Below are positions 39,815-43,387 of a DNA stretch of 64,000 nucleotides, in pieces. Under the pieces are notes generated by a model. It made no database searches. It was not told the DNA's origin and saw only the letters and a program-made list of their open reading frames with translations. The stretch's first letter is position 1. Each line of letters begins with the position of its first letter. Where the stretch lies: positions 1-64,000 of the forward strand of contig NZ_SOAY01000010.1 in the NCBI RefSeq assembly GCF_004364165.1. Reading direction: 5' to 3'. A program made the translations under genes and the position numbers. Source of the stretch: Maribacter spongiicola (GTDB lineage: Bacteria > Bacteroidota > Bacteroidia > Flavobacteriales > Flavobacteriaceae).

Positions 39815-41713
39815 ATGAGTGACGCAATTAAGCATGAGTGTGGTATTTCTGTAATACGGTTGTTAAAACCTTTAGAGTATTACAAGGAAAAGTATGGAAC
39901 AGCATTTTATGGTGTAAATAAAATGTACCTAATGATGGAAAAACAGCACAACCGTGGTCAAGATGGTGCAGGTTTTGCCAGTATTAAATTAGATGTAAAA
40001 GCAGGGGAACGCTACATGAGTCGTGTGCGCTCATGCCAACAACAACCTATACAAGACATATTTGCCCAAATAAACGATCGCATAAATTCTGAGCTTAAAG
40101 AGCATCCGGAATATGAAGATGATGTGGCCTTGCAAAAAAAGCACATACCTTATATAGGTGAATTACTTTTGGGGCATGTACGTTACGGTACTTTTGGAAA
40201 AAATAGCATTGAAAGTGTACACCCATTTTTAAGACAGAACAACTGGATGCACCGTAACCTTATTGTTGCCGGTAACTTCAACATGACCAACGTTCATGAA
40301 TTGTTCGATAATTTAATTCAGATAGGGCAACATCCAAAGGAAATGGCAGATACCGTAACCGTGATGGAGAAAATTGGTCACTTTCTTGATGATGCGGTCG
40401 CCAAACTATACAAGCAAATTAAAAAAGAAGGGTATACCAAACAAGAAGCATCACCACTTATTGCCGAACGTTTAAAAGTGTATAAAATTCTTAGAAGGGC
40501 CGCCAAAAATTTTGATGGTGGTTATGCTATGGCCGGCTTATTAGGTCATGGTGATGCATTTGTATTAAGGGATCCAAGCGGTATTAGACCTGCATACTAT
40601 TACAGAGATGATGAAGTTGTTGTGGTAGCATCAGAAAGACCTGCTATACAGACTGTATTCAACGTACCTTATGAAGAGGTAAAAGAATTGGATCCAGGTG
40701 CAGCGATCATTATTAAAAAGAACGGCACTAGTGACATTAAACAAATACTAGAACCTAAAGAGCGTAAAGCATGTTCTTTTGAACGTATCTATTTCTCTAG
40801 AGGTAGCGATAAAGAGATCTACCAAGAGCGTAAAGCTTTAGGTAAATTGGTTTTCCCACAAATATTAGAAGCTATTGATGAAGATATCAAGAATACGGTA
40901 TTCTCTTACATACCTAATACAGCAGAAACTTCTTTCTACGGTATGGTTAAGGAAGCTCAAAATTACTTGAACAAGAAAAAGGAAGAGCAAATACTGGCTT
41001 TAGGCACCGGTATTACAGGTGAACAATTACATGAGATACTAGATGTACGTCCAAGAATAGAGAAAGTTGCCATCAAAGATGCTAAGTTAAGAACCTTTAT
41101 TACTCAAGATAGTAGTAGAGATGATTTGGTAGCACATGTTTATGACATTTCTTATGGTTCTGTAAAAGAAGGTGATAACCTTGTTATAATAGATGATAGT
41201 ATTGTTCGCGGTACCACACTTAAAAAGAGCATTCTTAGAATACTTGACAGATTATCACCTAAGAAGATAATAGTAGTATCATCGGCTCCGCAAATTAGAT
41301 ATCCTGATTGTTATGGTATCGATATGGCGAAATTGGAAGATTTTATTGCTTTTAAAGCAGCTTTGGCATTACATGTAGACAATAACTCTATGCATATCGT
41401 AGATGAAATCTATAAAAAATGTTTAACTCAGGTAAAATCACGCGATAAAGATGTGATTAATTATGTCAAAGAATTTTATGCTCCTTTTACCGCAAAAGAG
41501 ATTTCAAAGAAAACCGGAGAGCTTTTAAGTCCTGATGGAATTAAAGCCGAAGTTTCTATTATTTACCAGACTATTGAGAGCTTACACGAAGCTTGTCCTA
41601 AAAACCTAGGCGATTGGTACTTTACAGGTAACTACCCAACCCCGGGCGGAAACAGAGTAGTAAATAGAGCATTTATAAACTTTTACGAAGGGAATAACGA
41701 ACGCGCTTATTAA
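39815..41713 (+). CDS. PurF-like class II glutamine amidotransferase/phosphoribosyltransferase (long form)
   Basis: A 632-aa protein with the architecture of amidophosphoribosyltransferase, about 130-150 residues longer than classical PurF. Residues 1-8 look like a short propeptide; Cys9 in HECGIS would be the N-terminal nucleophile. Glutaminase-domain markers HVRYGT, GNFN and RDPSGIRPAYYY are present. The PRPP-binding loop is IIDDSIVRGTT (about residue 462). Insertions occur in the glutaminase domain and a C-terminal extension of about 90 residues follows. It probably makes phosphoribosylamine for purine synthesis or a related reaction; whether a canonical PurF exists elsewhere cannot be told here. 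The start codon lies just after a terminator. Confidence 0.88.
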   Translation: MSDAIKHECGISVIRLLKPLEYYKEKYGTAFYGVNKMYLMMEKQHNRGQDGAGFASIKLDVKAGERYMSRVRSCQQQPIQDIFAQINDRINSELKEHPEYEDDVALQKKHIPYIGELLLGHVRYGTFGKNSIESVHPFLRQNNWMHRNLIVAGNFNMTNVHELFDNLIQIGQHPKEMADTVTVMEKIGHFLDDAVAKLYKQIKKEGYTKQEASPLIAERLKVYKILRRAAKNFDGGYAMAGLLGHGDAFVLRDPSGIRPAYYYRDDEVVVVASERPAIQTVFNVPYEEVKELDPGAAIIIKKNGTSDIKQILEPKERKACSFERIYFSRGSDKEIYQERKALGKLVFPQILEAIDEDIKNTVFSYIPNTAETSFYGMVKEAQNYLNKKKEEQILALGTGITGEQLHEILDVRPRIEKVAIKDAKLRTFITQDSSRDDLVAHVYDISYGSVKEGDNLVIIDDSIVRGTTLKKSILRILDRLSPKKIIVVSSAPQIRYPDCYGIDMAKLEDFIAFKAALALHVDNNSMHIVDEIYKKCLTQVKSRDKDVINYVKEFYAPFTAKEISKKTGELLSPDGIKAEVSIIYQTIESLHEACPKNLGDWYFTGNYPTPGGNRVVNRAFINFYEGNNERAY

Positions 41714-41721
41714 ATAATATT

Positions 41722-41776
41722 TCGATGAAATACATACTATTTGTGTATTTCATCGACGATAATGGTCTTTTATCGA
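41722..41776 (+). terminator. Paired hairpins after the PurF-like gene
   Basis: A perfect 13-bp stem, TCGATGAAATACA (41722-41734) with TGTATTTCATCGA (41744-41756), is directly followed by a second small stem CGATAA/TTATCG (41757-41775). There is no strong T run, so the first hairpin may be an RNA 3' end or stability element more than a classical terminator. It precedes the small-RNA array. Confidence 0.55.
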
Positions 41777-41805
41777 TTGAATAGTCGAATTGAATTAAGC
41801 AGCTT

Positions 41806-41813
41806 TACTTTTA
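41806..41813 (+). promoter_or_regulatory. -7 box of small-RNA copy 1
   Basis: TACTTTTA resembles TAnnTTTG and ends 5 bp before the conserved core of copy 1 at 41819. No -33 element is clear. Confidence 0.5.
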
Positions 41814-41818
41814 AAGCT

Positions 41819-41890
41819 ACCATAGCATAAGTAGGTTAAGTTCATGGTAAGATTTGGGGCAAAAAAGGTGGAGACTTCTCCACCTTTTTT
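41819..41890 (+). ncRNA. Tandem small RNA, copy 1
   Basis: About 72 nt. The 41-nt core (41819-41859) begins ACCATAGC and ends ATTTGGGG; ACCAT at the start can pair with ATGGT further on, closing a 20-nt loop. It is followed by a terminator: GGTGGAG (41867-41873), loop ACTT, CTCCACC (41878-41884), then six T. The core is identical to copies 2-4. No good reading frame: a frame opening at 41844 starts inside the core and crosses the terminator. First of five copies between the PurF-like gene and sod. Confidence 0.85.
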
Positions 41891-41978
41891 ATTTGCCATT
41901 TTTTTCTATCCACAAAGTTGTAATCCATTTCTTCACAAAGCTCTCTTTAACGTTATTACAAGACGTTTAGCCAATACC

Positions 41979-42010
41979 TTTTATATATATAAACAAGCCT
42001 ATTACATTTA
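41979..42010 (+). promoter_or_regulatory. Promoter of small-RNA copy 2
   Basis: TTTT at 41979-41982, 20-bp spacer, TACATTTA at 42003-42010. The box ends 4 nt before the core, as in copies 3-5. Confidence 0.6.
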
Positions 42011-42014
42011 CAGA

Positions 42015-42084
42015 ACCATAGCATAAGTAGGTTAAGTTCATGGTAAGATTTGGGGAAAAGGACGGAGCAATGCTCCGTCTTTTT
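42015..42084 (+). ncRNA. Tandem small RNA, copy 2
   Basis: About 70 nt. Core at 42015-42055, identical to copy 1 over 41 nt. Terminator stem GACGGAGC (42061-42068), loop AAT, GCTCCGTC (42072-42079), then T5. The stem sequence differs wholly from copy 1 while pairing is kept, showing selection for structure. The core starts 196 bp after that of copy 1. Confidence 0.88.
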
Positions 42085-42147
42085 AATTTACGGCCATTTC
42101 TAACTTCATCACCAGGCAAAATCTTCTTAAAATTTCAATTCTAGCAT

Positions 42148-42185
42148 TACAACTTAAGTTTGTGACGTACAACGAATAGCTTTTT
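42148..42185 (+). repeat. Upstream block of copy 3 (38 bp, shared with copy 4)
   Basis: 38 bp that match 42351-42388 at 37 of 38 positions and lie at the same distance (69 bp) from the core. It contains TACAAC twice, 20 bp apart, and ends in the T run at the -33 position. This could be an activator or repressor site shared by two copies. Confidence 0.75.
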
Positions 42186-42212
42186 ATACCACCCTTTATG
42201 CATATACATTTG
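42182..42212 (+). promoter_or_regulatory. Promoter of small-RNA copy 3
   Basis: TTTT at 42182-42185, 19-bp spacer, TACATTTG at 42205-42212: an exact TAnnTTTG box, the same octamer as in the ompA promoter at 47874. The box ends 4 nt before the core. Confidence 0.75.
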
Positions 42213-42216
42213 CAGA

Positions 42217-42285
42217 ACCATAGCATAAGTAGGTTAAGTTCATGGTAAGATTTGGGGAAAAGACGGAGCAATGCTTCGTCTTTTT
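42217..42285 (+). ncRNA. Tandem small RNA, copy 3
   Basis: About 69 nt. Core 42217-42257, identical to copies 1, 2 and 4. Terminator GACGGAGC (42262-42269), loop AAT, GCTTCGTC (42273-42280), T5; one C-to-T change relative to copy 2 converts a G-C pair to G-U, so pairing is retained. It has the best promoter match of the five. Confidence 0.9.
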
Positions 42286-42350
42286 ATTTTTGATCCATTT
42301 TATAACTTCACAAAAAACGAATATTTCTCCTCAATTTTTCATTTCGGTAG

Positions 42351-42388
42351 TACAACCTAAGTTTGTGACGTACAACGAATAGCTTTTT
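42351..42388 (+). repeat. Upstream block of copy 4 (38 bp, shared with copy 3)
   Basis: 37 of 38 positions identical to 42148-42185, with the same two TACAAC motifs spaced 20 bp and the same 69-bp distance to the core. DNA on its left is not alignable with the copy 3 upstream region, so the block itself seems conserved and not just recently duplicated. Confidence 0.75.
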
Positions 42389-42415
42389 GCAATACCCTCT
42401 AAGCCTATATATTTA
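42385..42415 (+). promoter_or_regulatory. Promoter of small-RNA copy 4
   Basis: TTTT/TTTG at 42385-42389 and TATATTTA at 42408-42415 with an 18-19 bp spacer. The box ends 4 nt before the core. Confidence 0.65.
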
Positions 42416-42419
42416 CAGA

Positions 42420-42488
42420 ACCATAGCATAAGTAGGTTAAGTTCATGGTAAGATTTGGGGAAAAGACGGAGCAATGCTCCGTCTTTTT
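42420..42488 (+). ncRNA. Tandem small RNA, copy 4
   Basis: About 69 nt. Core 42420-42460, identical to copies 1-3. Terminator GACGGAGC (42465-42472), loop AAT, GCTCCGTC (42476-42483), T5. The RNA is nearly identical to copies 2 and 3; the upstream 38-bp block is shared only with copy 3. Confidence 0.9.
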
Positions 42489-42591
42489 AATTTATACCAA
42501 TTGGGTTATAAAATAATCCGCCGCCCACAATGACCAATTCCTGTAAAACATCTTTAGTTAAATAAAAGATTAATTTTTTCTTAAAAATCCT

Positions 42592-42621
42592 TTTTTTATT
42601 TACTCAATACCAGTAATTTAG
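42592..42621 (+). promoter_or_regulatory. Promoter of small-RNA copy 5
   Basis: A T-rich -33 region at 42592-42597 and TAATTTAG at 42614-42621, a weaker match to TAnnTTTG, ending 4 nt before the core. Confidence 0.45.
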
Positions 42622-42625
42622 TCTC

Positions 42626-42696
42626 GCCATAGCATAAGTAGGTTAAGTTTATGGTAAGATTTGGGACGAAAAGGGTGGAGACTTCTCCGCCCTTTT
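42626..42696 (+). ncRNA. Tandem small RNA, copy 5 (divergent)
   Basis: About 71 nt. Core 42626-42666 differs from the others at three positions: first base G for A (GCCAT still pairs with ATGGT through G-U), one C-to-T before ATGGT, and a final A for G. Terminator GGGTGGAG (42673-42680), loop ACTT, CTCCGCCC (42685-42692), T4; it resembles copy 1 with an extra pair and a G-U pair. The core starts 206 bp after that of copy 4. Confidence 0.85.
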
Positions 42697-42706
42697 CTAT
42701 TTTAAA

Positions 42707-42744
42707 ACCAAAAAAACCACCCATGAATAATTCATAAGTGGTTT
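42707..42744 (-). terminator. Terminator of the superoxide dismutase gene
   Basis: On the minus strand AAACCAC/GTGGTTT and ATGAAT/ATTCAT form a two-segment stem (42714-42744) with a small internal loop, followed by a T run (the A run at 42710-42716 on the plus strand). It lies 35 bp after the sod stop. Confidence 0.75.
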
Positions 42745-42778
42745 CCTACAAGATAGTTAAGAATATTTCTACTCTTTC

Positions 42779-43387
42779 TTATTTGTTACTTGCATATCTT
42801 TTAGAAACTTCATCCCAGTTAATGATATTGAAAAACGCTTCAATATAATCTGGTCTCTTGTTTTGGTAATTCAGGTAATAGGCATGTTCCCAAACGTCTA
42901 AACCTAAAATTGGCTGACCTCCACATTCAACACCTGGCATTAATGGATTGTCTTGATTTGGTGTAGAACATACTTCTACTTTACCACCTTTATGAACACA
43001 TAACCATGCCCAACCAGATCCAAATCTTGTACCAGCTGCAGTTGTAAATTTATCTTTGAATGCATCAAAAGAACCAAAAGCGCTATCAATTGCAGCAGCT
43101 AATTCGCCACTTGGCTTTCCGCCTCCATTTGGTGATAAGATTGTCCAGAATAATGAGTGATTGTAAAATCCACCACCGTTATTCCTAACAGCACCATTAC
43201 TCATATCCAATCCTGTTAAAATATCTTCTATAGACTTCTCAGCAAGATCAGTACCTTCTATAGCAGCGTTCAACTTAGATGTATATCCTTGGTGATGTTT
43301 TGTATGATGTATTTCCATAGTCCTTGCATCGATATGAGGCTCAAGAGCATCATAGGCGTAAGGCAATTTTGGTAGTTCAAAAGCCAT
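42779..43387 (-). CDS. Superoxide dismutase, Fe/Mn type
   Basis: A 202-aa Fe/Mn superoxide dismutase. Metal ligands are His27 (MEIHHTKHH), His76 (FYNHSLFW), Asp163 and His167 ([18 protein letters not shown]). No signal peptide, so it is cytosolic. The [13 protein letters not shown] pattern is nearer the Mn type, but metal choice cannot be fixed by eye. It is monocistronic, facing the small-RNA array with its own terminator. A TAACTTTG box lies 36 bp upstream. Confidence 0.95.

Follow-up and report, generated by a model that had tools for sequence, protein, structure and literature searches.

Conserved Tandem Small RNA Array of the Flavobacteriaceae, with Candidate mRNA Targets and a Predicted Antisense Decoy

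Why bacteria keep several identical small RNA (sRNA) genes is the question raised by a locus of Maribacter spongiicola, for which a three-promoter array and a putative decoy offer a case. The window (the whole stretch of DNA analyzed, 64,000 nucleotides) carries five near-identical sRNA units of ~73 nt each, all on the + strand, in the purF-sodA interval. Here, we report their anatomy, conservation and upstream elements, the complementarity of other RNAs to them and, for part of the data, a matching indel, all as read from sequence. The array probably specifies a trans-acting sRNA that acts by base pairing; its tandem genes would be under different controls, and it would regulate mRNAs with a shared leader and be titrated by decoy RNAs. 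sRNA regulation in the Flavobacteriaceae is little studied; the open-licence literature searched yielded one functional paper, on Rfp18 (PMC9723704, available in part), and no published description of the array sRNA.

The five copies (Table 1) start where the original prediction had placed them, on the + strand at a spacing of 196, 202, 203 and 206 bp, and share a 41-nt core that is identical in copies 1 to 4 and differs at three places in copy 5 (first base A>G, one C>T, last G>A). Each copy was likewise found to have its own promoter-like box (TAnnTTT(A/G)-like, shortly upstream of all five) and its own terminator (predicted in the fold of all five units), and the sRNA would start at ACCATAGC and give a transcript of ~73 nt. 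Each unit was predicted to fold into a hairpin with a GUAGG loop at the 5' end, followed by AAGAUUUGGGG as an unpaired linker and by the terminator, with a stability of z -4.07 to -5.44 (0 of 200 shuffles equally stable for each of the five). The complement of the copy 1 linker (AAGATTTGGGG) was found again in the partner RNAs described below. A 38-letter core pattern (up to 3 mismatches) matched only the array's five places in the 4.46-Mb genome (reversed control, 0), and copies 3 and 4 lie inside a 175-nt repeat (85% identical). Between the end of the purF-like gene, encoded on the same strand, and copy 1 there are 105 nt, and the sodA-like gene is convergent from the opposite side; control of sodA in cis was rejected because the array converges on the sodA 3' end.

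Table 1. Coordinates of the array, its neighbors and the partner features of the same genome (window positions unless a contig or locus is given).
Feature	Position	Strand	Remark
purF-like ORF	39815..41713	+	conserved upstream neighbor; name by sequence recognition
Direct repeat TTCATCG-N13-TTTATCG upstream of copy 1	41749..41775	+	about 20-21 bp period
Copy 1 promoter-like box TACTTTTA	41806..41813	+	sequence; class A consensus ta.tTtag
sRNA copy 1, class A	41819..41892	+	GGGGCA after core, first in array
GUAGG apical loop of copy 1	41831..41835	+	seed candidate 1
AAGATTTGGGG single-stranded linker of copy 1	41849..41859	+	seed candidate 2
Class B-type direct repeat upstream of copy 2	41946..41974	+	
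sRNA copy 2, class B	42015..42087	+	
sRNA copy 3, class B	42217..42288	+	
sRNA copy 4, class B	42420..42491	+	
Class C upstream element TTATTTACTCAATACCAGTAATTTAG before copy 5	42596..42621	+	consensus of 83 class C copies
sRNA copy 5, class C	42626..42700	+	GGGACGAAAAGGG
sodA-like ORF	42779..43387	-	conserved convergent neighbor; name by sequence recognition
Putative antisense RNA	G000:C8:76057-76178	-	
Small ORF	L344 position 805		downstream of scoB

The core was conserved in related genomes, as the original prediction demanded of a functional array. With one 72-nt unit as query (E<=0.01), the sRNA was matched in 162 of 199 Flavobacteriaceae genomes, and covariance model R1 detected it in 96 of 121 genomes of genus g127 (probably Flavobacterium). 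R1 also matched 6 of 295 genomes of the class, all 6 from the same family; its absence outside the family is weak evidence, because searches over 40 genomes used strict filters. The consensus structure of R1 models the terminator improperly, and the model served detection only. A degenerate core pattern retrieved at least 119 loci. Genus names among the 80 loci listed included Maribacter, Zobellia, Arenibacter, Eudoraea, Robiginitalea, Cellulophaga and Kordia (which we take to be Flavobacteriaceae genera) and others, next to unresolved Bacteroidota metagenome-assembled genomes (MAGs) and one MAG labeled Algicola. Synteny was kept as well: both purF and sodA adjoined the array at 27 of 30 loci (the one in the window included), at 28 of 30 loci of g127 (L170-L199) and at 81 of the 119 loci listed, where 35 had one of the two, 3 had neither and some loci were cut.

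Across relatives, a core of ~40 nt was nearly invariant; among 323 units at the 119 loci listed, 219 had the exact 38-nt core and 95 had one change. Compensating double changes affected 6 of 11 stem pairs (7 cells versus 1.5 after shuffling) in an alignment of 111 units (46 loci; 74 distinct units) that had been fitted to the model, and one stem pair was open in 42 of the 74 rows. GTAGGT and GATTTGGGG stayed almost unchanged across these units while the stems varied. A GC-rich divergent copy (L080 4153-4220) had its stem largely replaced but kept the loop and, almost unchanged, the linker.

No Rfam family reached its gathering threshold in the window (Rfam 15), in line with the original prediction of a candidate undescribed system, and the membership in a family such as Flavo-1 for which that prediction had allowed was not borne out, Flavo-1 being absent from the 50 lax Rfam matches listed for 41700-42780. 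Lax matches to STnc40 and sraA were set aside because they depend mostly on the hairpin and U-run of the terminator. FopS (RF04319) was ruled out on score (20.2 bits against a cutoff of 56; E 0.15 with the terminator); the 47-nt core alone had no Rfam match at E<=10, and the FopS model matched none of 61 genomes of the phylum, the M. spongiicola genome included, while a Bacteroides control was matched.

Spacers between the copies had been described as mostly unrelated, with selection acting on the promoter-RNA-terminator unit. The first statement was partly right: the spacers are not simply unrelated because copies 3 and 4 repeat and each copy class has a conserved upstream element. Selection on the unit alone does not fit, the first, middle and last copies having distinct conserved upstream elements. 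The four letters that follow the core defined the class of a unit, upstream elements playing no part (of 323 units, 12 were unclassified and one 12-mismatch unit was later dropped). The order was exactly A-B(1-4)-C in 63 of the 119 arrays listed, the others being single, partial or cut, and the upstream elements tracked classes A (first), B (middle) and C (last) although they had not been used in classing. At the loci listed, the class A repeat (TTCATCG-N13..15-TT...CG), mostly 70 to 72 nt before the core, preceded 42 of 104 A, 3 of 119 B and 0 of 82 C copies (mean in shuffled class A, 0.07). The class B repeat differs from it and was found at 70 to 71 nt before 67 of 119 B, 0 of 104 A and 0 of 82 C copies; copies 3 and 4 of the window did not match its pattern. 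Class C copies shared the upstream sequence CTTTNTTATTTCNCACAATACCAGTANTTTAG across loci, and a regulon for this element was ruled out by its single occurrence in the M. spongiicola genome (up to 3 mismatches). An ACAAC box was not enriched in class B promoters. The spacing of the TTCATCG direct repeat presumably recalls LytTR-type regulators. At least three modes of control thus seem to act on one RNA, so that, with distinct elements upstream of the first, middle and last copies, the same RNA could answer different signals. PrrF1 and PrrF2 are near-identical, separately promoted tandem sRNA genes about 200 bp apart; unlike that pair, the array has three promoter classes in a fixed order.

A pattern complementary to the linker and the 3' stem arm (CCCAAATCTTACCAV), written to exclude the array, gave 24 matches (18 genomes) among 199 genomes, against 4 for the reversed pattern. 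Sixteen of the 24 were promoter-antisense-terminator units at 13 loci, in the order ACAACT box, T-tract, CATCTTT/CATATTT-like box, AGT or AT, CCCAAATCTTACCAAACTAAACCTAACTAATGCT-like sequence and terminator; of the other eight, four lay in or close to genes of mobile elements, one was a leader at scoB and three were unassigned. With model R2, a sequence model built from 15 antisense units, 28 of 199 genomes scored above 40 bits, and every one of them has the sRNA (28 of 162 sRNA-positive genomes); only these are counted because the 99 of 199 genomes matched by R2 include weak matches, many of them on the opposite strand of the arrays. A fasciclin-type gene lay upstream at 23 of 27 loci and a convergent yidC at 22 of 27 (names by sequence recognition), and a promoter box was present at 26 of 27, a count that for the R2-found loci is partly by construction because R2 contains the box. 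The second half of the antisense RNA, outside the pattern, was still complementary to the sRNA on average (mean z -2.29 over 27 loci; single loci, -6.8 to +0.6), with no complementarity at L308, L291 and L294. The antisense RNA would be ~70 nt long and start near AGTCCCAAATC. For the copy in the M. spongiicola genome (duplex energy, -31.3 kcal/mol), the claim rests on an unbroken 14-base match to the sRNA, promoter box, terminator and conserved locus, not on duplex energy.

These predicted units are separate, gene-like and complementary to the sRNA seed. They resemble sponge RNAs, such as the phage-borne AgvB and AsxR, which are anti-sRNAs, in being dedicated sRNA-complementary RNAs with a predicted promoter and terminator of their own. 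Unlike AgvB and AsxR, they sit mostly at one chromosomal locus (fasciclin-yidC), are complementary to most of the functional part of the sRNA, have a 5' end like that of the mRNA partners and in one genome form a tandem array of four. This last array (L282 positions 908-1501; G129:C9:58825-59432) has a spacing of ~197 bp, mirroring that of the sRNA array. A nearly invariant, multicopy core would also suit an RNA that titrates a protein (CsrB/RsmZ-like), tandem dosage and core serving to bind the protein and complementary leaders being a by-product; we hold this to be very unlikely, as the complement exceeds its reversed-pattern control and recurs both in antisense units that carry a promoter box and a terminator and at start regions. 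Roles could also be swapped, with the antisense RNA as effector and the array as sponge, since the two RNAs are mutually complementary. The array is present in 162 of 199 genomes versus 28 of 199 for the antisense gene, and it is the antisense RNA, rather than the array, that the mRNA leaders look like, which makes such an exchange very improbable.

Places listed for an ATG-anchored pattern were largely the arrays themselves; the pattern also exposed a scoB leader. In several genera, complementary leaders precede a small ORF beside scoB (scoB and an ABC gene were named by recognition), and at the start codon they read like TCC(C)AAATCTTAC. A scoB search gave 96 matches in 91 of 100 genomes, and 70 downstream regions (30 loci from the search, 40 picked by hand) were tested for pairing. 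All 25 dinucleotide-preserving shuffled sRNAs were beaten in 44 of the 70 (mean z -4.5), where the real score is the better of two sRNA forms and the shuffles come from one form only; z reached -10 and the best energy was -52.9 kcal/mol. Mean duplex energy was -33.9 kcal/mol downstream of scoB versus -27.1 kcal/mol in scoB coding sequence as a control. The other 26 regions failed to beat all shuffles, and no significant scoB site was found in the M. spongiicola genome (z -0.8), in G075 of the same genus (-0.8) or in G001 (-0.4). Pairing at scoB was weak in several other genomes with a stand-alone antisense RNA, and the complementary module perhaps passed from the scoB mRNA to the antisense gene.

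The small ORF (26 to 68 amino acids), ending like LTKKxFML (e.g., LTKKIFML) or AKKVFLLM, was recognized in 47 of the 70 regions (L314-L383) and absent in this form from 23; its conserved end is partly by construction because the search demanded KK[VILM][FCY][LMVI] near the end. Changes at its three codon positions numbered 328/132/671, a third-position excess (98 close pairs). None of five peptides tested belonged to a Pfam or NCBIfam family. Such peptides, short, lysine-containing and amphipathic-looking (by eye), together with extended predicted pairing in the small-ORF region, down to the best energy given above, could be read as a type I toxin-antitoxin system, with the scoB-adjacent peptides as toxins and the array as a multicopy antitoxin RNA. 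We consider that quite improbable: the array and the small ORF lie at unlinked places, S8 peptidase leaders fit this sRNA as well, and genomes whose scoB pairing is weak or absent, M. spongiicola included, still keep the array.

The S8 peptidase came from a search for the sixteen-base complement (up to 3 mismatches) in three genomes. In the M. spongiicola genome, this gave 65 places versus 51 for the reversed control and therefore little excess. Thirteen loci (5 from this genome) and 12 further places of this genome were inspected, that is, 17 of its 60 places outside the array; the 12 were picked by eye because their CCAAAT-like part was intact, and for 8 of them the other strand carried a long open frame. 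Both the S8 leader and an RNA-like unit with two sites were drawn from these 12. The latter (L424 position 159; G000:C1:78758) combines two sites complementary to the sRNA with a downstream hairpin like that of an intrinsic terminator and is a possible second decoy in this genome. The S8 peptidase carries a Por secretion tail (T9SS-secreted), and its leader in M. spongiicola reads TATATATTTGTAGTCCAAATCTTAC..ATG. Eight orthologs were found in 120 genomes (47 to 65% identity to that of M. spongiicola), and 6 of 8 leaders had AGTCCAAATC exactly, G056 and G030 having a looser form. All 60 shuffles were beaten by 7 of 8 leaders including that of M. spongiicola and by 6 of 7 without it; two shuffles beat G108, and the G030 leader was short and poor.

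Duplex energy alone is not decisive, because the best chance duplexes (~6,400 60-nt windows of the 64-kb window) reached -32.4 kcal/mol, about the value of the M. spongiicola antisense RNA and better than that of its S8 leader (-27.3 kcal/mol). The leader motif did not occur in the 64-kb window, and the strongest duplexes there, at about -32 kcal/mol, were taken as chance background.

In part of the data, the sRNA linker and the partner sites appear to share a matching indel. All 11 scorable genomes in which every linker had one A (GGTAGATTTGGG) had a matching one-T site, CAAATCTA(C/T)C, near scoB (three further one-A-linker genomes had no scorable scoB site), a set that has no contrast of its own because no genome with only two-A linkers had a scorable scoB site. 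The longer form was kept in 6 of 6 scorable S8 leaders besides that of M. spongiicola (found by protein homology in two-A genomes) and in 13 of 13 antisense genes with an intact first half that came from the model and not from the pattern, a weaker part of the comparison because the model was built from the longer form.

We propose that the GUAGG loop and the AAGAUUUGGGG linker would pair with RNA 5' ends that read (AG)TCC(C)AAATCTTAC(C), followed by an AACCTAC-like sequence. Targets would be the start regions of at least two types of mRNA, encoding the scoB-adjacent small protein and the T9SS-secreted S8 peptidase, and pairing there would most likely block translation; the stand-alone antisense RNA, with the same 5' sequence as the targets, would act as a decoy that titrates the sRNA. 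Occlusion of the start region is the most likely mode by analogy with FopS, which occludes the susC start region and represses (PMC11697453, as far as its available part goes). The main rival, which we regard as unlikely, is the same pairing with the opposite sign: pairing at the 5' end would protect the targets or open the start site, activating both. Sites begin a few nucleotides from the presumed 5' end of the target, and Rfp18 of Flavobacterium psychrophilum supports the mRNA level of two metalloproteases (PMC9723704, available part), both in keeping with activation; against it, pairing in many leaders also covers ATG-adjacent sequence, as in FopS, a repressor (PMC11697453, available part). 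We infer repression rather than activation.

The A-type repeat was found upstream of 7 of 8 S8 peptidase genes (the G075 promoter lacks it), 11 of 47 small-ORF genes and 1 of 27 antisense genes, against 5 of 2,000 random stretches of the window. An element of copy 1 that also stands before S8 and some small-protein genes, common to array and targets, suggests an incoherent feed-forward loop around the proposed repressor. It is possible, if on balance somewhat doubtful, that these parts make up an undescribed Flavobacteriaceae regulon of a conserved sRNA, an ordered three-promoter array, a leader code (A)GTCC(C)AAATCTTAC and decoys that are truncated, terminator-ended leaders; as truncated leader copies ended by a terminator, the decoys would descend from one module with the targets. 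AGTCC(C)AAATCTTA at promoter-adjacent starts is a candidate form of the regulon motif.

The kind of system is known, a multicopy base-pairing sRNA with a sponge; new are the ordered three-promoter array, the target-leader module common to the partners and the conservation across the family. The closest likeness is to FopS/GibS of Bacteroides, which according to the available part of PMC11697453 are also Bacteroidota RNAs of 65 to 75 nt in multiple near-identical copies and pair at start regions (reported for FopS, predicted here). The aligned consensus has UUCAUGGUA..AGAUUU in common with FopS, and the seed is possibly common to both across the phylum. FopS members are listed as 9 intergenic, 4 antisense and 1 3'UTR-derived (PMC11697453, same part), whereas here there is one purF-sodA tandem array and, unlike FopS, an antisense partner gene; FopS is bound by the RRM protein RbpB. 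Rfp18, compared by description only, is likewise a conserved flavobacterial sRNA linked to secreted proteases and, unlike the array sRNA, pairs by its third stem-loop (PMC9723704, available part). The same F. psychrophilum transcriptome gives 85 newly described RNAs in the part consulted, among which there may be a homologue of the array sRNA (PMC9723704). The finding offers a conserved sRNA, candidate targets, an antisense gene and pairing positions that change in step between lineages; the targets and lineage-matched positions make the sRNA directly testable, and the finding also brings to light a conserved gene for a small protein that has no entry in Pfam or NCBIfam.

sRNA-complementary 14-mers also lie near relaxase/MobC-like genes at L427 (G000:C1:686500-691000; site, G000:C1:688630) and L262 and near a recombinase-like gene at L271, and L264 is among the mobile-element sites as well. 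Two of these sites adjoin a long hairpin, possibly an origin of transfer, and mobile elements might carry an anti-sRNA of their own.
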